The notes beneath the pieces were generated by a model. That model searched no databases. It was not told where the DNA came from and saw nothing but the letters and a program-made list of their open reading frames with translations. From positions 34,151 to 98,150 of the forward strand of contig JAFSEF010000116.1 of assembly GCA_017435865.1 (NCBI GenBank): a stretch of DNA of 64,000 nucleotides, in the 5' to 3' direction. Source of the stretch: Clostridia bacterium (GTDB lineage: Bacteria > Bacillota > Clostridia > Oscillospirales > Acutalibacteraceae). Each line of letters opens with the position of its first letter. Within the stretch, counting starts at the first letter, position 1. Shown here in pieces: positions 16,628 through 49,200 of this stretch. A program made the position numbers and the translations under genes.

Positions 16628-16656
16628 TTGACAGAAAGATATAAAAAAGGTATAAT
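16628..16656 (+). promoter_or_regulatory. Consensus promoter of the pyr operon
   Basis: TTGACA (16628-16633), 17 nt spacer, TATAAT (16651-16656), both exact. Transcription should start near 16662, leaving only about 16 nt before the pyrC start codon, too short for a PyrR-type attenuator. Confidence 0.88.
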
Positions 16657-16678
16657 ACATTGAAAAGGAATGAGAGAA

Positions 16679-17932
16679 ATGAATTTTAAAGTTACAAATT
16701 GCAATGTTTATAAAGATCGCCGTTTTTCATCGGAACCCATTTCGGTGAAGCACGGCTCGTTTTCTGCTTTTGACATGGAAGCGGAAAAGGTGTTTTCTTT
16801 TCCCGATTGTGTTATTTTTCCCGGTTTTATCGATGCACACGTGCATTTGAGAGAGCCGGGTTTTTCTTATAAAGAAACCATCCGCACGGGAACTTCTGCC
16901 TGTGCCGCAGGCGGCTACACCGAGGTCTGCTCCATGCCGAACCTCAGGCCTGTACCCGACAGCAAAGAGAATTTGCAGCAGCAGCTCGACATCATCGAAA
17001 AAGATGCCGTGATCGGCGTGCATCCCTTTGCATCCATCACGGTCGGTCAGCAGGGTGAAACGCTTTCCGATCTTGACGGTATGGCAGAAAACTGCATCGG
17101 ATTTTCGGATGACGGCAAAGGCGTGCAAGATGAAGAAATGATGCGGCAGGCCATGCTGCAGGCAAAGCAGCTCGGCAAGATTATTTCCGCACACTGCGAA
17201 GTCAACGACCTGCTGTTCGGCGGCTACATTCACGACGGCGAATACTGCAAAGAGCACAACCACAAAGGCATTTGCTCGGAAAGCGAATGGAAGATGATCG
17301 AACGCGACCTGCGTCTTGCCAAAGAAACAGGCTGCAAATACCACGTCTGTCACATTTCTGCAAAAGAAAGCGTGGAACTCATCCGCAAAGCAAAAGCAGA
17401 AGGTGTGGATGTAACTTGCGAAACGGGTCCGCATTACCTTGTGCTGTGCGACAAGGATCTGCAGGAAGAAGGCAGATTCAAAATGAATCCGCCGCTGCGT
17501 TCCGAAGAAGACAAAAAAGCTTTGATTGAGGGCATCCTCGACGGCACCATCGACATGATCGCAACCGACCATGCACCGCATTCGGAAGAAGAAAAAAGCA
17601 AGGGTCTTGCAGGCAGCATGATGGGCATTACGGGCATTGAAACCGCCTTCCCGATCATGTACACACACTTTGTAAAAACAGGTCTTATCACACTCGAAAA
17701 GCTGATGGATCTGCTGCACAACAATGCAAAAAAACGCTTCGGCATCGGCACGGACATTGAAGAAAATGCACCTGCCGACTTCACGGTCTTTGACCTGCAC
17801 GAAGCATTCACGATTGACAGCAAAAACTTTGTTTCCATGGGGAAAGCCACCCCCTTTGACGGATGGAACGTGTACGGAAAGTGCCTTCTGACCGTCAAGA
17901 ACGGCAATATCGTATGGGAGACAGAAAGATGA
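16679..17932 (+). CDS. pyrC: Dihydroorotase
   Basis: 417 residues, class I/type of Gram-positive PyrC. The metal site HVHLREPG lies near residue 55, later ligands in SAHCEVND and VCHIS, and the catalytic Asp block TDHAPHSEEEK near residue 300. It cyclises carbamoyl-aspartate to dihydroorotate in UMP synthesis. The second ATG was chosen because AAGGA lies 9 nt before it; the first ATG directly abuts that site. It leads a seven-gene operon of the pathway; the stop codon overlaps the pyrK start (ATGA). Confidence 0.95.
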   Translation: MNFKVTNCNVYKDRRFSSEPISVKHGSFSAFDMEAEKVFSFPDCVIFPGFIDAHVHLREPGFSYKETIRTGTSACAAGGYTEVCSMPNLRPVPDSKENLQQQLDIIEKDAVIGVHPFASITVGQQGETLSDLDGMAENCIGFSDDGKGVQDEEMMRQAMLQAKQLGKIISAHCEVNDLLFGGYIHDGEYCKEHNHKGICSESEWKMIERDLRLAKETGCKYHVCHISAKESVELIRKAKAEGVDVTCETGPHYLVLCDKDLQEEGRFKMNPPLRSEEDKKALIEGILDGTIDMIATDHAPHSEEEKSKGLAGSMMGITGIETAFPIMYTHFVKTGLITLEKLMDLLHNNAKKRFGIGTDIEENAPADFTVFDLHEAFTIDSKNFVSMGKATPFDGWNVYGKCLLTVKNGNIVWETER

Positions 17933-18663
17933 CAAAACAAGGCATTTTCACCATTCTTGAAAACACGAAACTGACCGACAATGTTTACAAAATGATTCTC
18001 GGCGGCGACACATCCGCAATCACCGCACCCGGTCAGTTCATCAATATTCAGCTCGACGGTTTTTACCTGCGCAGACCCATTTCCGTCTGCGATTGGAATG
18101 ACAGCACCGTTACCATTATTTACAAGGTTGTCGGCAAGGGTACTGCCTACATGGCAACACTCGAAAACGGCAAAACACTCGACGTTTTAAGCGGACTCGG
18201 AAACGGCTTTGACACTGCAGAAGCGGGCGAAAATCCCGTTGTCATCGGCGGCGGTGTCGGTGTACCTCCGATGTTCGGCGTTGCAAAGAAACTGCTTGCA
18301 GAAGGCAAAAAAGTGACCGCCATCCTCGGCTTCAACACAAAAGACGAAATCTTTTACGAAGAAGAATTCAAGGCTCTCGGCTGCGAAACCCTTGTCACCA
18401 CTGTTGACGGCAGCTACGGCACAAAAGGCTTTGTAACGGATGCACTCAAAAACATCGATTATTCTTACACCTGTGCCTGCGGTCCGGAACCGATGCTCAA
18501 GGCAATTTACAATGCAAGCACCACAAGCGGACAATACAGCTTTGAAGAACGCATGGGTTGCGGCTTCGGTGCCTGCATGGGATGCTCATGCAAAACCAAA
18601 TACGGCAACAAGCGAATCTGCAAGGACGGTCCCGTACTTGTAAAGGAGGAGATCATATGGTAA
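17929..18663 (+). CDS. pyrK: Dihydroorotate dehydrogenase electron transfer subunit
   Basis: 244 residues. A ferredoxin-reductase-like fold with the FAD block YLRRPISVCDW, the NAD-binding GGGVGVPPMFGVAK, and a C-terminal 2Fe-2S site with Cys in GCGFGACMGCSC and KRICKDGPV. PyrK passes electrons from PyrD to NAD+, defining the type 1B heterotetramer. GGAG lies 8 nt before the ATG, which overlaps the pyrC stop codon by 4 nt; the 3' end overlaps pyrD by 7 nt. Confidence 0.95.
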   Translation: MTKQGIFTILENTKLTDNVYKMILGGDTSAITAPGQFINIQLDGFYLRRPISVCDWNDSTVTIIYKVVGKGTAYMATLENGKTLDVLSGLGNGFDTAEAGENPVVIGGGVGVPPMFGVAKKLLAEGKKVTAILGFNTKDEIFYEEEFKALGCETLVTTVDGSYGTKGFVTDALKNIDYSYTCACGPEPMLKAIYNASTTSGQYSFEERMGCGFGACMGCSCKTKYGNKRICKDGPVLVKEEIIW

Positions 18664-19568
18664 ACACAAAAGTCAATCTCTGCGGTCTGCTTCTTGACAA
18701 TCCCGTCATTCCCGCAAGCGGCACATTCGGCTACGGCTATGAATTCCACGAACTGTATGACATCAATATTCTCGGTTCATTCTCGTTCAAAGGCACAACA
18801 AGAGATCCCCGTTTCGGCAACCCGACACCGCGTATTGCGGAATGTGCATCGGGCATGCTCAATGCGGTCGGTCTGCAGAATCCCGGCGTTGAAAAGGTTA
18901 TCAGCGAAGAACTCCCGAAACTCAAGGAATGTTTCCACAAGCCCGTGGTTGCCAATGTCAGCGGTTTTTCACTTGACGAATATGTTGAAGTCTGCGAAAA
19001 ACTCGACAAGGAAGAACAGGTCGGCATTCTCGAAGTCAACATCAGTTGCCCGAACGTACACGGCGGCGGAATGAGCTTCGGCACAAGCTGCGAAAGTGCG
19101 GCAGAGGTGACAAAAGCGGTCAAAGCTGTTACCGCAAAACCCGTTGTTATCAAACTCAGTCCCAATGTCACGGACATTGTTTCCATTGCCAAGGCCTGTG
19201 AAGAAGCAGGTGCAGACGGCATCAGCATGATCAACACCCTGATGGGTATGCGGATTGATCTGAAAACAAAAAAACCGATCATCAAAAACAAGACAGGCGG
19301 CTATTCGGGTCCTGCCATTCTGCCTGTTGCGGTACGCATGGTCTACAGTGTGTTTGAAGCGGTTAAAATTCCCATCATCGGCATGGGCGGTATTTCCACG
19401 GCAGAGGACGTCATTGAAATGATGCTTGCAGGTGCAACGGCTGTTGAAGTCGGTGCTGCAAACCTCATTGATCCCTTTGCAAGCAAAAAAATTGTGGAAG
19501 ATCTTCCCGCGGTCATGCAGAAATACGGTATTCATAATTTAACAGATATAATAGGAGGCGCTCACTAA
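18657..19568 (+). CDS. pyrD: Dihydroorotate dehydrogenase, type 1B catalytic subunit
   Basis: 303 residues, FMN-binding TIM barrel. Motifs include [33 protein letters not shown] with the active-site Cys of class 1 enzymes, and IIGMGGIST near the phosphate site. It oxidises dihydroorotate to orotate and passes electrons to PyrK. AGGAGGAG lies just before the ATG, which is inside the end of pyrK. Upstream in-frame codons would extend into pyrK and were rejected. Confidence 0.95.
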
Positions 19569-20266
19569 TGGGTAAAGACGTAATCATTGCTTGCGATTTC
19601 AGCAGCAAACAGGCTTGTCTTGATTTTCTGGACAAGTTCACGGAAGAAAAACCGTTCGTAAAAATCGGTATGGAACTTTTCTATGCAGAAGGTCCGTCCA
19701 TTGTCAAAGCGATCAAAGAAAGAGGCCACAAGATTTTCCTGGATCTGAAACTGCACGATATTCCCAATACCGTTATGAAGGCAATGAACGTGCTTTCCAA
19801 CCTCGATGCAGACATCTGCAACCTCCACGCAGGCGGCACAAAGGCCATGATGGAAGCCGCAATCAAGGGGCTGACCAGACCCGACGGCACCCGTCCCCTG
19901 CTGATCGCTGTCACACAGCTGACAAGCACCTCGCAGGAAGCCATGACCGCCGACCTTCTCATCGACCGTCCCATCGACGAAGTCGTTATGCACTATGCAA
20001 AGAACGCTGCAGACGCAGGTCTTGACGGTGTTGTCTGCTCTCCGCTGGAAGCAGGCAAGGTACACGCACTCTGCGGTGAAAAATTCCTCACCGTAACCCC
20101 CGGTGTCCGTTTTGCAGACGGTGACGTGGGCGACCAGAAGCGTGTTATGACCCCTGCACAGGCAAAAGAAATCGGCTCCGACTACATTGTTGTCGGCAGA
20201 CCCATTACAGCCGCAGAAGATCCCGTTGCCGCATACAGACGTTGCTGCAACGAATTCATCGGATAA
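19568..20266 (+). CDS. pyrF: Orotidine 5'-phosphate decarboxylase
   Basis: 232 residues of the OMP decarboxylase barrel. The catalytic Asp-Lys-Asp array is in [13 protein letters not shown]; the phosphate-binding end is VTPGVRF and YIVVGRPIT. It makes UMP from OMP. The start codon overlaps the pyrD stop by one base (TAATG), with GGAGG upstream inside pyrD, so translation is coupled. Confidence 0.96.
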
Positions 20267-20287
20267 TTTAATAAGGAGTAGATAAAA

Positions 20288-20926
20288 ATGAGTATTGAAA
20301 GAACCGTAGCAGAAGCCCTGCTTTCCATCAAAGCCGTATTTTTCCGTCCGCAGGAACCCTTTACATGGGCTTCGGGCATCAAGAGCCCCGTTTATTGCGA
20401 CAACCGTCTGATCCTCACCGCTCCCGAACAGAGAAACATTGTCGAACAGGCTATTGCAGATACTGTTAAGGCCGAATATCCCGAAGCAGAAGTGCTCATG
20501 GGAACCAGCACCGCAGGTATTGCTCACGCAGCCATTGCAGCTTCCATTCTCGGCATGCCCATGGGTTATGTCCGCGGCAGCAGCAAGGACCACGGCAGAC
20601 AGAACAGAATCGAAGGCAAGCTCGAAGCCGGACAGAAGGTCGTTGTTATTGAAGACCTCATTTCCACAGGCGGCAGCGTTATTGACGTTGTGGATGCACT
20701 CCGTGAAGCAGGTGCGGAAGTTCTCGGCATCGTCAGCATCTTCACCTACGGCATGCAGAAGGGTCTTGACCGCCTTGCAGCCGCAAACGTAAAGAACGTT
20801 TCGCTTACCAACTTCGACACCATTGCCAAGGTTGCAGCCGAAACCGGTTACATTGCCGACAGCGACATTGCAAAGCTGCTGAAATTCCGTGACAACCCCT
20901 CGGATGAAAGCTGGATCGGAGCATAA
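20288..20926 (+). CDS. pyrE: Orotate phosphoribosyltransferase
   Basis: 212 residues. The PRPP-binding loop is VVIEDLISTGGSVIDV; FTWASGIKSPVYCDNR near the N-terminus matches the orotate-binding region of PyrE. It joins orotate and PRPP to give OMP for PyrF. AAGGAG precedes the ATG. It lies 21 nt after pyrF and 3 nt before pyrB. Confidence 0.96.
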   Translation: MSIERTVAEALLSIKAVFFRPQEPFTWASGIKSPVYCDNRLILTAPEQRNIVEQAIADTVKAEYPEAEVLMGTSTAGIAHAAIAASILGMPMGYVRGSSKDHGRQNRIEGKLEAGQKVVVIEDLISTGGSVIDVVDALREAGAEVLGIVSIFTYGMQKGLDRLAAANVKNVSLTNFDTIAKVAAETGYIADSDIAKLLKFRDNPSDESWIGA

Positions 20927-20929
20927 AAT

Positions 20930-21844
20930 ATGAGAAGTCTGATTGATATTCTCGACCTCTCCGTTGAAGAGATCGACGAACTCATTGAAACAGGACTTGA
21001 CATCATTGCCAATCCTGCCAAATATGCCCACAAGTGCGACGGTAAAAAGCTTGCTACCCTTTTCTATGAACCGTCCACAAGAACAAGACTGAGCTTTGAA
21101 GCTGCCATGCTTGAACTCGGCGGCAGTGTGCTCGGTTTTTCGGAAGCAAACTCATCTTCCGCTGCAAAGGGTGAAAGCGTTGCTGACACCGCCCGCACCG
21201 TCAGCTGCTATGCAGACATCATTGCCATGCGACATCCCAAAGAGGGTGCTCCTCTTGTTGCAGCCAGAAAGAGTCTGATCCCCGTCATCAACGCAGGTGA
21301 CGGCGGTCACAACCATCCGACACAGACACTGACGGACTTGCTGACCATCAAAAGAGAAAAAGGCAGATTCGACAATCTGACCATCGGCCTTTGCGGTGAC
21401 CTGAAATTCGGCAGAACCGTACATTCGCTGATCAGTGCCATGTCAAGATATGAAAATGTGAAGTTTGTGCTCATCAGCCCTACTGAACTGATGATCCCCG
21501 AATATGTCCGTCAGGAATACCTGCTTGAAAGAAACATTGAATTCGTGGAAACGACCGACCTTGTCGGTGTTATGCCCGAACTCGACATTCTTTACATGAC
21601 CCGTGTACAAAAAGAACGTTTCTTCAACGAAGCGGACTACCTTCGTCTGAAGGACAGCTACATTCTCACCCTCGACAAGATGGCAAACTCCAAGCCTGAC
21701 CTTGCTGTTCTGCATCCGCTGCCGAGAGTCAACGAAATTGCGGTTGAAATTGACGACGATCCCCGTGCCTGCTACTTCAAACAGGTTTTCAACGGCAAGA
21801 TCATCCGCATGGCTCTCATCATGAAGCTGTTGGAGGTACAATAA
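20930..21844 (+). CDS. pyrB: Aspartate carbamoyltransferase catalytic chain
   Basis: 304 residues. The carbamoyl phosphate site [13 protein letters not shown], the Lys-bearing loop SSSAAKGES and HPTQTLTDL are conserved, as is [10 protein letters not shown] near the C-terminus. It condenses carbamoyl phosphate with aspartate, the first committed step. It is followed without a gap by the regulatory chain gene, so an allosteric E. coli-like holoenzyme is expected. Confidence 0.96.
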
Positions 21845-22267
21845 ATGATCATCAACCCCATTACAAACGGCATCGTGCTCGACCACATCAAACCCGGCGG
21901 TGCCATGCATATTTATAATGTTCTCAAACTCGGCAACCTCGGCTGCACGGTCGCAATGATCATGAATGCAGACAGTGTCAAAATGGGCAAAAAAGACATC
22001 ATCAAGATCTTTGATCTGATCGACATCAACCTCGATGTCCTCGGATATCTGGATCCCGGCATCACCGTCAGCATGATCAAGGAAGGCGTTCTGGCAAAGA
22101 GAATTCACCTTGAACTTCCCGAAGAGGTTCACGATGTCATCCGTTGCCGCAATCCGCGTTGCATCACCTCCATTGAACAGGAACTGCCGCAGATTTTCCG
22201 CCTTACAAACCGCGAACAAAGAATCTATCGCTGCGAGTATTGCGAATCCAAGGCTAAAGACGACTAA
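21845..22267 (+). CDS. pyrI: Aspartate carbamoyltransferase regulatory chain
   Basis: 140 residues. The N-terminal nucleotide-binding half begins with NGIVLDHIKPGGAMHIYNVL; the C-terminal half has a zinc site of four Cys in CRNPRC and YRCEYC, which docks on PyrB. Nucleotides (CTP/UTP inhibition, ATP activation) would control the enzyme through this chain. It ends the operon and starts directly after the pyrB stop codon, with GGAGG inside pyrB. Confidence 0.95.
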   Translation: MIINPITNGIVLDHIKPGGAMHIYNVLKLGNLGCTVAMIMNADSVKMGKKDIIKIFDLIDINLDVLGYLDPGITVSMIKEGVLAKRIHLELPEEVHDVIRCRNPRCITSIEQELPQIFRLTNREQRIYRCEYCESKAKDD

Positions 22268-27530: not shown

Positions 27531-27559
27531 TTGACATTAATTGTCGGAAACAGTATAAT
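27531..27559 (+). promoter_or_regulatory. Consensus promoter of the uraA-upp operon
   Basis: TTGACA (27531-27536), 17 nt spacer, TATAAT (27554-27559), both exact. Transcription should begin near 27566, at the ribosome site of the leader reading frame. Confidence 0.88.
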
Positions 27560-27577
27560 TTTCGTGAGGTGAGCAAA

Positions 27578-27652
27578 ATGACAACGGCTAAAGCAAAAAA
27601 GATGTGCAACATTTTTTCTTTTCAGCCGTATTATTTTTATTTCACCTTTTAA
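27578..27652 (+). CDS. Putative leader peptide of the uraA-upp attenuator
   Basis: A 24-codon reading frame starting with MTTAKAKKMC and ending in a Phe/Tyr-rich tail (QPYYFYFTF). GAGGTGAG lies 4 nt before its ATG. Its second half is a U-rich RNA stretch, and its stop codon touches the 5' arm of a terminator hairpin. This is the layout of pyrBI-type leaders: when UTP is low, RNA polymerase pauses in the U-rich region, the translating ribosome catches up and blocks the hairpin. The peptide itself probably has no function. An aromatic amino acid signal is the other reading, less likely given the downstream genes. Confidence 0.7.
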   Translation: MTTAKAKKMCNIFSFQPYYFYFTF

Positions 27653-27685
27653 CTGACGTTTTTTTCGGCGTCGGTATTTTTTTTG
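27652..27685 (+). terminator. Attenuator terminator upstream of uraA
   Basis: Stem ACTGACG/CGTCGGT (27652-27658, 27669-27675; one T-G pair) with a 10-nt loop, then ATTTTTTTTG. It lies between the leader frame and uraA, so transcription of uraA-upp needs readthrough. Confidence 0.78.
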
Positions 27686-27717: not shown

Positions 27718-29106
27718 ATGAAACTGATCTACGGTATCAAAGACAAGCCCCCCTTCGGGAAACTCGTACTGTTTTCCATCCAGCAGCTGCTTTCCATCAT
27801 CGCAGCTACCATCCTTGTTCCCATGCTCGTCAACTACAACGGCGGCTACGAAACAGGCACGGTTCTTTCCACCTCTTCGGCTATGCTCGGTGCAGGCTTG
27901 GGAACCATCGTATACTTCCTGTTCACCAAGGGTAAGAGCCCCGTTTTCCTCGGTTCTTCCTTCGCCTTCCTCGGCTCTCTTTATGCCGCAACCGCAAACG
28001 GTTACATGGGCATCCTCATCGGCGGTTTGCTTGCAGGTCTTGTGTATGTAATCATTGCCATCATCGTCAAAATCAGCGGTACGAAGTGGATCTCCAAGCT
28101 GCTTCCTCCCGTGATCATCGGGCCCACGGTTGCCCTCATCGGTCTTTCCCTTGCAGGTTCGGCCATCAACAACGTGCAGAACATTGCAGCTTCTACCGAC
28201 AACTACAACCTGATCGCCATTCTTTGCGGCGTGATCACATTCATTGCAACCGTTGTTGCATCCTGCTACGGCAAAAAGACTCTCAAGCTGATCCCCTTTA
28301 TCATCGGTATTGCAGCAGGTTACATTTCTGCTGTTATCTTCACCGTGATCGGCATTGCAACCGAAACTCCCTATCTGCAACTGATTGACTTCAGTGTATT
28401 TGAATCCTTCTCATTCAAGACCATCGTTTCCGTTCCCGACAATATTGTTCTGTTCAAGGCAATCGGTGAAATGGGCTCCTTCGACTGGAAGAACGTTGCA
28501 TCCATCGCACTTCTGTTCATGCCCGTTGCTTTCGTTGTTCTTGCCGAACACATTGCTGACCACAAGAACCTCAGCTTCATCCTTTCCGACGGCGACAATC
28601 AGGTTGACCTTCTTGAAGATCCCGGTCTCTCCCGCACATTGCTGGGTGACGGTGTCGGCTCCATGATCGGTACCATGTTCGGCTGCTGCCCGAACACCAC
28701 TTACGGCGAATCCGTCGGTTGTGTTGCCATTACCAAAAATGCATCCGTTTACAGCATCATCGGTGCGGCAATACTGGCTATTGTAATGGCTTTCATCACT
28801 CCGTTTGAACTGTTTGTCAGCTCCATTCCGACCTGCGTCGTCGGCGGTATCAGTATTGCTCTGTACGGCTTTATTGCAGTTTCGGGTCTGAAGATGATCC
28901 AGAAGGTTGACCTGAACCAGAACAAGAATCTGTTTGTTGTTGCAGCAATCCTCATCCCCGGTATCGGCGGCATGACCCTCAACTTCGGCGGTGAAGATCC
29001 CTTCAATGCTCCCGTTATCAAAATCACAAACATTGCAGTCGCTCTTATCCTCGGTATCATCGTCAACGCTATTGTTTCCAAAGCAAAGGCTGACAATGAA
29101 GCATAA
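27718..29106 (+). CDS. uraA: Uracil permease (NCS2 family)
   Basis: 462 residues with about 14 hydrophobic segments. The N-terminus (GKLVLFSIQQLLSIIAATIL) and the NCS2 signature region (VVLAEHIADHK, with the substrate Glu, and CPNTTYGESVGCVAITK) fit UraA. It imports uracil with a proton for salvage by Upp, encoded 18 nt downstream. AAGGAG precedes the ATG. Expression is probably set by the leader attenuator. Confidence 0.95.
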   Translation: MKLIYGIKDKPPFGKLVLFSIQQLLSIIAATILVPMLVNYNGGYETGTVLSTSSAMLGAGLGTIVYFLFTKGKSPVFLGSSFAFLGSLYAATANGYMGILIGGLLAGLVYVIIAIIVKISGTKWISKLLPPVIIGPTVALIGLSLAGSAINNVQNIAASTDNYNLIAILCGVITFIATVVASCYGKKTLKLIPFIIGIAAGYISAVIFTVIGIATETPYLQLIDFSVFESFSFKTIVSVPDNIVLFKAIGEMGSFDWKNVASIALLFMPVAFVVLAEHIADHKNLSFILSDGDNQVDLLEDPGLSRTLLGDGVGSMIGTMFGCCPNTTYGESVGCVAITKNASVYSIIGAAILAIVMAFITPFELFVSSIPTCVVGGISIALYGFIAVSGLKMIQKVDLNQNKNLFVVAAILIPGIGGMTLNFGGEDPFNAPVIKITNIAVALILGIIVNAIVSKAKADNEA

Positions 29107-29124: not shown

Positions 29125-29754
29125 ATGGCAAATATCACAATTTTCGATCATCCGCTGATTCAGCACAAGATTGCCGTGCTTCGCAATGAAGCAACAGGCA
29201 GCAAGGAATTCCGCGAGCTTGTGAAGGAAATCACCATGCTCATGTGCTATGAATCGCTGCGTGATCTTCCGTTAAAGGATGTTACGGTAAAGACCCCCAT
29301 CACAGAAACCGTCTGCAAGATGGTAGACGGCCCGAAGTTTGCAATCGTTCCGATTCTGCGTGCAGGTCTGGGCATGGTGGACGGAGTGACAAGCATTGTG
29401 CCCGCAGCACGAATCGGTCATATCGGTCTGTACCGTGACGAAGAAACCCTTGAACCGCATGAATACTATTGCAAGCTGCCTCCGCAGATTGAAAAAAGAC
29501 AGATCATCGTTGTTGACCCGATGCTGGCAACAGGCGGCTCCGCCATTGCTGCACTCAACTTCATCAAGCAGCACGGCGGCAAGAACATCAAGTTCATGTG
29601 CCTGATCGCAGCTCCCGAAGGCATCAAAGCCCTCAGTGCGGCACATCCTGATGTACCGATCTTCTGTGCAAGCAAAGACGAAAAACTCAACGAAAAGGGT
29701 TATATCGTCCCCGGCCTCGGTGATGCAGGCGACCGTATTTTCGGAACAAAATAA
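29125..29754 (+). CDS. upp: Uracil phosphoribosyltransferase
   Basis: 209 residues, the standard length. PRPP loop [10 protein letters not shown] and the C-terminal uracil-binding region [17 protein letters not shown] are intact. It converts uracil and PRPP to UMP, giving salvage alongside the de novo pyr operon at 16.7-22.3 kb. Confidence 0.97.
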
Positions 29755-46264: not shown

Positions 46265-49200
46265 TTAATCCAAGAGTCCTTTGAACCATTCGGCGATCTG
46301 TTTGAAGAGATCAATGAGTTTCCGGAAGAGCTTGATGAATCCGTTGGGAACCAGTTCATCGCGATCCAGAATATCTTCAAAGTTCTGATCGAGGAAATCA
46401 CCGAGTGAAGATTCGAGATTCTTCAGGAAGTCAACGTCGCTGTGTTCAAAGAGGTCATTGAGGAATGCGTAGTTGTCGTTTGCATTGTCATAGCCGCCTT
46501 CAACTCCGTCGGCTGCAGCCTTTGCGGAATAGAAGATGTAGTAAACGGTGTAAAGGATCTTATCCATACCGTCTGCATTGCCTGCCATGTCTGCAAAGTT
46601 GTCAAGCAGAGCACATACAAACTTGTAGCCGTCCTCGCTGAGGTCGTCCTTGATCATGGTCTTGATGACTGTTACGTTTTCACGATCGGAAACGAAGGCA
46701 AGTGCAAGACGAAGCACAACCGTAATCATGTCGGCTCTGTCGCCGCCTTCAGCATACTGCATGGTGTAAGCGGTGTCGCCGTTCTTGGAAGTGAATGCAA
46801 CCACTTCGCCGACGGTCAGTTCGTTGATTGCTTCCATTGCAACTTCTTCAAGATGGAAGCCGCTTTCGGTTTCGAGATCCTTGAGAAGCTGACGGATGAT
46901 GTTTTCGATATTGATGGTCTTGAAGTCAAAACCGATCAGTTCGTAAATATCAACTTCATCGATTGCAGGTTCAAGGTTTGCAAGCACACCGAGAACTGCA
47001 TTGATGATGTTTTGGAATGCGGTATCAAGTCCGTTGCAGTTGATGAAGTAAATGACACCGGGAAGAACGTCAAAGATTTCATTCAGCGGATCTGCAAGAA
47101 TGACATCCACCTTGTTGAGGATCGGATCAATGACATTTCTGAGAAGCAGTTCGGGATCATTCTGTGCTGCAGCCTTGAATTCGGCAGGCGTCATGGTTGT
47201 ATCGTGGCAACCGAGTGCTTCCATGACGGGGATGATACCGTAAGCATAGCCTTCTGCACCGTCAATGACGATCAGGTCGCGTTCGCTGCCGTCGTTGCTG
47301 TGGAAGAATGCAATGTCTTCGTCTGTCAGCAACCATGCAAGAAGCGGATAGAAGGGCTTGAGCATTCTGAGAAGTTCGTTGACAAAGCTTGCACGATCAC
47401 CTTCGGTGATTTCGGCAACGGTGTAATTGTCCCAATAAGTCAGATCCACACCGAGAGCCGTATTCACAACAACAACGATCTTTTCGTAAAGTTCTGCATC
47501 CAGGCTGCCGCTCAGGTTTGCAAGCAGGTCTTTGAGTGCAGCGAGAATCATTTCAAGATATTCTGTCTTGTAAACGGTTTCACCGACATAGTCATCCAGA
47601 ATTTCTTCGAGGCTTTCGTAGGTCACTTCGCTATCGCCGATCTGAATGCCGAGCAGATGAATCATGGTGTCCACAAATCCGGGGAAGTTTGCTTCCATGT
47701 ATTCTCCCATTTCACGGGTGAAATACTTGCCGTAGACATAATCATAGATGCTGCCCATGACAACGGGAGAAAGAACTTCGCCCGTGCCTGCATAAGAAGT
47801 CAGCTGCCAGTCATAATCCTGCATTCCGACTTCGATTGCATTGTCGGAAATGTATCTGTAAATGATGGTATAGATGTCTTCACCGATCCAGCCGATGAGT
47901 CTTCCTGCATTTCTTTCGTCAGCAACTGCATCACCGACGAAGGAGATCAGGCAAGTGATCATATCCTTGCGGGTTTCTTCTTCGCTGTAGGTCATGTGGT
48001 AAGCGGTCTTACCGTTTGCGGAGGTGAACGGTACCACCTGACCAATGAAGAATTCGGAAAGGAAGTCGATGGTATAATCCGGGAAGTAGAGATCGAGAAC
48101 GTCAATCAGAAGATCCTGTACGGCATACCAGTCAACATTTGTGATGTCGATCTGTTCAACGATGGTTGCAAAGTCAACCTTGACACCCATGGGTTCAAGA
48201 TGTCCGAGCAGTTCGTTGACAGGCAGAAGCAGGTTATTGACAACCACTTTCAGACCATCCGCATTGACGAAGTACAGGAAGTTGGGCAGCATATCGAGCA
48301 TGGTGCCGACAGTGCCGTTGTTTTCCTGATCTGCAAGATCACCGCAGATGACATACAGCCAATCCGTGACAGCGGAGAATACATCTCTGACGACCTGTGC
48401 CATGTCGATGTTGCCGTTTTCATCTCTGAAATCGTCGGCAGACTTGATGGCGGTCTGTCCGTCAGCGTAGGTACCTGTCATGCCGGGCATCTTTGCACCG
48501 ACACCTTCGAGCAGCGGTACAAACGCATTGTCATAACCCATAGCACCCGTCAGAGTGATCAGCGGTTCGTTGGTTGTGCCGTTGAAGAAGGTATAATCTT
48601 CTGCAAACAGAAGCCATGCAAGCAATCTGTAAGCAGGTTCAAGAGCGGTTACAAAACCTTCGACGAAAGCGGTACGCTTTGCATCGTTACCGACTGCGGA
48701 ATCAATGCCCCAGTCTTTGTTGCAGACAACAACGGTTTCACCGTTTTCATCGATGGAGATGTCACAGTAGGAGAACCAGTCTGCAATCTTTTCTGCACCG
48801 AGCAGGACGCCTGCTGCGGCAACAATCTCTTCATAATCGACAAGCAGTTCAACGACCATTTCAATGAGGCTGTTGAGGATGCTGTCCTGATACAGACCCT
48901 TGGAGATTGCATTGTCCAGAAGCTGACCGACGGTGCTGCCGTCATTTCTTGCAGCATCAGTGATATTCTTGACAAGTGAATCGAGCACTTCGTCCACATA
49001 TTCTGCTGTTGCTTCGTTCCAGTTGTTTTGGTACTTGGTATAAACTTCGTAGGAGTCGCCCGTACGTTCGGGAAGATTGTTTGCAGCAAGCTGTGCAAGT
49101 GCATCTTCGTCTTCATACATATAAGCCCAGTTCATTTCTCTGTAAACGAAGGGTTCGGCGGCACCGCGGATGAGGTTGTAAACTGCCCAATAGGTTTCTT

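Follow-up and report, generated by a model that had tools for sequence, protein, structure and literature searches.

In Escherichia coli K-12, the sequence of the pyrBI operon places a leader open reading frame (ORF), pyrL, before an intrinsic terminator, with a U tract ahead of the terminator and pyrimidine genes after it, and tight coupling across this pyr leader is needed to prevent the terminator (PMC5021804, PMC4824070). In the same species carA is preceded by two promoters, and carAB and upp are both subject to pyrimidine control, which the accessible part of PMC6245113 places at initiation, with no leader peptide or attenuator in its description. In Bacillota, PyrR-RNA attenuators serve the same genes as those considered here. 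The phylum has been classed, at phylum level, among the runaway transcribers (PMC13323073), and terminators near stop codons are a reported proxy of runaway transcription, in which polymerase outruns ribosomes (PMC7858274).

The window, i.e. the whole 64,000-nt stretch of clostridial DNA analysed (from genome G000), carries a leader unit in front of uraA-upp. The promoter, leader frame, stop codon, hairpin, T tract, uraA and upp listed by the first-pass annotation, which had proposed a pyrBI-like, UTP-sensing attenuator, were all recovered in place. The main features of the window, all on the forward strand, are as follows.

16679..22267, + strand: de novo pyrimidine operon pyrC-K-D-F-E-B-I (names from translations; pyrB by TIGR00670)
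27531..27559, + strand: sigma-70-type promoter TTGACA-17-TATAAT, 12/12 match, with identical hexamers and 17-nt spacing in three relatives
27566..27573, + strand: Shine-Dalgarno sequence GAGGTGAG, read from the sequence; AGGTGA kept in 4/4 aligned rows
27566..27648, + strand: predicted leader hairpin over the Shine-Dalgarno sequence and start codon (-26.2 kcal/mol), proposed to act as a timing gate
27578..27652, + strand: 24-codon leader ORF MTTAKAKKMCNIFSFQPYYFYFTF, with ATG at 27578 and stop TAA at 27650-27652; open in 4/4 species
27611..27650, + strand: U-rich second half of the leader (U 0.59, last 13 codons), a putative UTP-sensitive slow zone
27652..27684, + strand: intrinsic terminator (putative attenuator), stem 27652-27675, then A and T8 at 27677-27684
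27718..29106, + strand: uraA, uracil permease family (Pfam Xan_ur_permease, 4.1e-74)
29125..29754, + strand: upp, uracil phosphoribosyltransferase (Pfam UPRTase, 8.7e-78)

The runner-up to this promoter in the same 4-kb scan matches at 9/12 positions, and from the spacing of the -10 hexamer the transcript is predicted to start at or near 27566. The leader frame runs up to the terminator, the first base of the stem being the last base of the stop codon. A length of 7 bp had been given for the hairpin, which holds for its core, the full stem having nine pairs when G-U is allowed. The two other frames of the uraA leader contain one or two stops each, with the exception of one frame in G001 that has none. 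Among 18,244 coding windows drawn from 43 open frames of the window, 16 are as rich in U as the last 13 codons of the leader, and U content before the uraA terminator is the highest upstream of any of the 38 terminator-like sites in the window; a U-rich site at 47368 proved to be the pyrC promoter read on the reverse strand. When 27566-27651 was dinucleotide-shuffled 20,000 times with the terminator fixed, 139 shuffles gave a Shine-Dalgarno sequence and an ORF that had 15 or more codons and ended no more than 10 nt from the stem, and the strict combination (strong Shine-Dalgarno sequence, ATG, at least 20 codons, end no more than 5 nt from the stem) arose in 5 of 20,000 shuffles of the same segment.

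The pyrL frame has 44 codons, passes through the terminator and ends after it, whereas the leader ORF of the present unit ends at the stem or beside it; the unit is for this reason classed as a variant that would work alike, and not as a pyrL homologue. Unlike pyrBI, the locus has a predicted hairpin that buries the Shine-Dalgarno sequence at uraA, the genes served are uraA-upp and carA, and the local pyr operon is without a leader. Over the 39 nt before the E. coli pyrL terminator U reaches only 0.36; the four uraA leaders compared have 0.56-0.59 in their last 13 codons (16-28 of 18,244 coding windows as high), and since pyrL itself scores 0.36, the U content of the last 39 nt is a crude measure.

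A uraA protein search of the genus (26 genomes; close matches at E <=1e-170) retrieved a close uraA from four genomes only, namely the window's own and those of G014, G001 and G021, with 86-100% identity, and the leader unit is present in all four. The attenuator proposal had been made to depend on conservation of the frame and hairpin among relatives; the frame, the U-rich end and the terminator are kept in each of these four genomes, on which the case for conservation rests, and in the terminator stem one pair is changed on both sides and two on one side. The leader peptides of the G000, G014, G001 and G021 group are MTTAKAKKMCNIFSFQPYYFYFTF, MTTAKEKKMQNDLISFKPYYFYFTF, MTTAKQMKTTSFVLVVYYSYFC and MTTAKEKKMCNDFSFKPYYFYFTF, with more nonsynonymous than synonymous codon differences in 6/6 pairs. 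Most of the peptide, including the ending PYYFYFTF, is common to the three close species, while the leader of G001 retains MTTAK and carries YY-YF near a differing end; codons 2-5 of G000 and G001 differ only synonymously. In the uraA tree (22 rows of 30 loci, leaving out G005, with a stop inside the match, and seven partial matches), the four genomes, which belong to uncultured gut bacteria, form one group with support 100/99, on a long branch flagged by the program.

A scan of 80 named uraA loci, taking in as much as 400 nt of upstream sequence, returned units only in G014, G001 and G021. Script flags at L063, L081, L088 and L099 were rejected because the ORF is the tail of an upp-like gene, with an internal TTG taken as its start (stem 3-11 nt past the stop), and those at L073 and L131 as ORFs ending 18 and 14 nt before the stem. 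An RNA model of the uraA leader, run on 300 family genomes, matched strongly in G000, G014 and G021 only; 31 other genomes matched at <30 bits, taken as chance, 246 gave no match, and G001 is outside the matches, presumably through not being in the 300-genome draw. The earlier suggestion of T-rich leaders in other Oscillospiraceae came out negative beyond the clade, at uraA loci, at carA loci and by the RNA model.

A second unit, at carA, consists of a 12/12 promoter, a Shine-Dalgarno sequence (AGCAGGTG or AGCGGGTG), a leader ORF and a stop TGA at the terminator stem. Its leaders have 37, 42, 38 and 38 codons, start with MTTK, MTAK, MTAM and MTAK, and show stop-to-stem distances of -2, -2, +1 and -2 nt in G000, G014, G001 and G021, respectively. 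Frame 0 is free of stops in 4/4, each other frame having two to four, and the peptide drifts, with 11-25 nonsynonymous vs 3-5 synonymous codon differences per pair in 6/6 pairs. The unit lies directly 5' of carA in G000, G014 and G001; a second consensus promoter stands between the two, so that the unit cannot be carA's only control. In G021 the unit and carA are on different contigs, the former towards the end of C16 and the latter at the beginning of C18, the match of the unit to G014 extends over the unit and near flank only, and a second, better-scoring carA on C9 has no unit seen upstream. By TIGR01368, carA of G000 scores 311 vs a cut-off of 307.35 and is backed by Pfam, the other three falling just short at 305-307. 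Of 26 other genomes, 14 supplied 16 carA loci, and in none of these was the unit seen in the 500 nt upstream. The carB of G000 (L161:5816-9850) is one 1,344-residue frame running into a diaminopimelate epimerase domain (Pfam) and is, by its sequence, a fusion of carbamoyl-phosphate synthase and DapF. Such a fusion is not known to have been described.

We consider it more likely than not that the leader of uraA-upp, and that of carA-carB, is a pyrBI-type attenuator, coupled to translation and set by the supply of UTP. With UTP in plenty, polymerase would leave the ribosome behind in the U-rich stretch, the leader RNA would close (hiding the ribosome site at uraA), the terminator would fold and transcription would end. 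When UTP is short, polymerase would be slowed in the U-rich stretch, giving the ribosome time to load and catch up; at the stop codon the ribosome would cover the 5' arm of the terminator, and polymerase would continue into uraA-upp. What would count is translation of the leader, not its peptide. A U-rich stretch just before the terminator is found in 4/4 uraA leaders and in carA leaders other than that of G001, U in the last 13 codons at carA being clearly raised in two of the four (0.62 and 0.56), moderate in G000 (0.49) and, which counts against this reading, not raised in G001 (0.36, a level attained by 2,394 of 18,244 windows). A short leader ORF with its own Shine-Dalgarno sequence separates the promoter from the first gene, the translation of which is suggested by frame conservation in four species, and 8/8 leaders have a terminator that a ribosome near the end of the ORF would be expected to cover.

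The specificity of this layout was assessed by two pattern searches of the four genomes, which demand an exact promoter or TATAAT plus GGTG, and ATGAC, and so miss other leader kinds. They returned 27 and 30 sites, 20 and 16 of them with an ORF of <=60 codons. A short ORF with its stop <=5 nt from a terminator stem was found at the eight uraA/carA units (by both patterns) and at one other site, L166 (G001 contig C22, from 346), where a perfect promoter and a Shine-Dalgarno sequence precede a 42-codon ORF, MTERELFALENRLFAELESAKGLKKLAIIMKLDGLMSMKNEL, whose stop begins an imperfect terminator-like stem. This ORF, with 9 U in its last 39 nt, is not U-rich and is perhaps a small protein gene; as its stop lies on the stem without a U-rich end, layout alone is no proof of an attenuator. 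Ten clade stretches with 98 terminator-like sites held seven such units (uraA 4, carA 3) and a 41-codon small ORF in two genomes. The latter was seen as similar ORFs, MNEQVLKEIQDFFAFL... and MDAGVLKEIQDFFAFL..., on the reverse strand of L054 and L056 (15925 and 10348 of the reverse complement), each with a promoter-like site and a terminator, and may perhaps likewise be a small protein gene. A separate arrangement at L178:1501-1765 (G001 contig C73) comprises a 12/12 promoter, GGCAGGTGG and a 22-codon ORF, MTMYYLYYSNSHIKSDVVLSAI, with a terminator 26 nt past its stop and then a further start codon.

These counts bear on the best placed, though still unlikely, alternative, according to which the leader is an ordinary small gene with its own terminator and uraA lives on leaky read-through, unregulated. 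In 22 longer clade frames (open frames of >=150 codons, uncurated, with the same genes recurring across several species), the terminator stem starts a median of 11.5 nt past the stop, with a minimum of 4 nt, so that nothing is unusual about a small gene that stops close to a terminator; at other species' loci the median is 14 nt and the stem lies <=2 nt past the stop in 18/188 longer frames (a yardstick from E. coli, with two values, was dropped). Small ORFs comparable to the leaders, namely the 41-codon ORF in two genomes and L166 in G001, also speak for this alternative. Against it, the distance is -2 to +4 nt in 8/8 uraA/carA leaders, with the stem nearer the stop in seven of the eight than in any of the 22 longer frames; eight of the nine short-ORF sites with a stop at the stem in the pattern searches are uraA/carA units, the carA leader peptide is not conserved, and the promoter scan detected no promoter-like site between the terminator and uraA. 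As for coupled attenuation, the clade's ordinary terminators are close to stop codons, as in the proxy of runaway transcription, and such short distances would fit a default-off switch and could equally be used to doubt that ribosomes catch up.

A comparably unlikely alternative takes the leader hairpin itself for a regulatory RNA, to which a protein or ligand would bind, the ORF being secondary and the U-richness serving to pair with the purine-rich Shine-Dalgarno half. The predicted fold of the uraA leader RNA begins at the first base and ends shortly ahead of the stop, its Shine-Dalgarno sequence and start codon paired with the U-rich end, and some of the U-richness at uraA could be there to pair with the purine-rich 5' half. 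The hairpin of the window reaches z -5.1 vs dinucleotide shuffles and z -4.4 with its halves shuffled apart; across the four species the folds span -24.8 to -27.3 kcal/mol, with z -3.9 to -5.9 and -2.8 to -5.0 in these two controls. Versus synonymous versions z is -3.7, -4.9 and -4.2, and in G001, where support is weakest, -1.0, so that the stable hairpin spanning the leader goes beyond composition in all controls in three of the four species. Against a regulatory RNA stand this synonymous control in G001, the Rfam search, in which no family reached its gathering score in the window (matches near the leader being weak and implausible), and the carA leaders, which have the same layout and whose folds, at z -0.7 to -2.3, are little better than those of half-shuffled controls. 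The hairpin and the terminator moreover coexist in the predicted folds, so that folding alone would not switch. For the attenuator reading, too, the alignment holds a weakness: RNAalifold gave 34 pairs, one with a two-sided change, which is in the terminator, and an unfavourable covariation term of +0.75; nine of the 25 leader hairpin pairs are broken in one row.

These folds also bear on the pausing hairpin that the first-pass annotation had seen in the stem ACGGCT 27584-27589/AGCCGT 27624-27629. The stem is real as a pairing and forms the inner part of the long predicted hairpin 27566-27648; the pausing role fits less well, the stem belonging to a larger structure over the Shine-Dalgarno sequence and start codon, and the carA fold being little above controls. 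Because the carA folds barely beat their controls, the hairpin is likely an extra of the uraA device and not its core.

Somewhat more improbable is a leader-peptide attenuator for another signal, either Phe/Tyr supply or a small molecule on which the nascent peptide would stall the ribosome. The uraA leaders do carry 5-8 Phe+Tyr codons of 22-25, and the shared PYYFYFTF ending of the three close species would suit such a role, but the genes that follow belong to pyrimidine metabolism, neither Tyr nor this ending occurs in the carA leaders, and the uraA ending of G001 differs. The predicted folds moreover contain no antiterminator pairing, so that a ribosome stalled early would favour termination. 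Action of UTP at initiation, by start-site switching or slippage with the leader incidental, is very improbable, since, for all that upp, carAB and also pyrBI of E. coli show UTP-dependent reiterative transcription (PMC6245113), the first transcript bases predicted from the putative start site are GAGG, without a U run, and the conserved leader and terminator would be left unexplained.

Returning to UTP-tuned, translation-coupled attenuation, the comparison with PyrR-RNA attenuators is set by the protein's distribution. The absence of a PyrR element or gene noted in the first reading of the window extends to G000 as assembled and to the three relatives: no PyrR protein (NF003549) scored over cut-off in G000 (85% complete), G001 (90%), G014 (97%) or G021 (97%), the sole match in G000 being upp, with 19.6 bits vs a cut-off of 138, nor did any PyrR site pass threshold in these four genomes, the uraA leader included. 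PyrR was over cut-off in 18 of the 39 genomes examined, including 12 of 22 other congeners, and in seven of these 12 pyrR precedes uraA in the same orientation, by 50 to about 370 nt. The ten other congeners have no PyrR over cut-off, several of them being incomplete; among them G006, G017 and G019, for which the full uraA upstream was read, are without the leader unit, so that absence of PyrR does not imply the leader device. The PyrR RNA site RF00515 was over threshold in none of 14 genomes, and is a weak test because PyrR-bearing congeners were missed too. Its best match in G000 has 30.2 bits, another (21.3 bits, E 2) overlaps the start of pyrC, and sub-threshold sites lie before uraA in G023 and G057.

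Before uraA in G006, G019 and G017 (L016:1331-1500, L018:1331-1500 and the reverse strand in L014), a terminator with possible alternative pairing was observed. The 5' arm of these terminators, of which AGCAATCTTGT...GGGATTGCTTTTTT in L016 is an example, could, by eye, instead pair with an upstream stretch, which gives them a switch-like appearance; these elements had no Rfam match up to E 0.5.

The de novo pyr operon of the window has its promoter about 20 nt before pyrC (16629-16690), with no leader or attenuator seen. No leader or terminator was seen at this promoter in G000, and no leader in G014 and G021 (the G001 contig is too short); pyrimidine control of the operon, if any, must therefore work otherwise, and the lack of such a leader on the main pyr operon counts against the attenuator reading.

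In the clade where PyrR was not found, this type of attenuator has probably arisen independently. Titles and abstract beginnings in the literature, with most subscription papers outside this scope, yielded no report that uraA or carAB of any Bacillota is under a leader-peptide attenuator, and we know of no kinetic-gate hairpin described for the E. coli pyrBI device. More tentatively, the clade, being without detectable PyrR, may have re-invented pyrBI-style control as a small regulon of uraA-upp and carAB, in which polymerase would normally outrun ribosomes, termination would be the default, and a UTP-slowed polymerase alone would admit the ribosome before the hairpin shuts the Shine-Dalgarno sequence. 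If true, UTP-sensing, ribosome-coupled attenuation would have arisen outside enterobacteria, in a genus where congeners carry a protein-based switch, and the clade would provide a test case from nature for gene regulation by coupling in Bacillota, a phylum whose transcription is believed to outpace translation. With two units and PyrR-bearing congeners at hand, the exchange of regulators would be directly testable.
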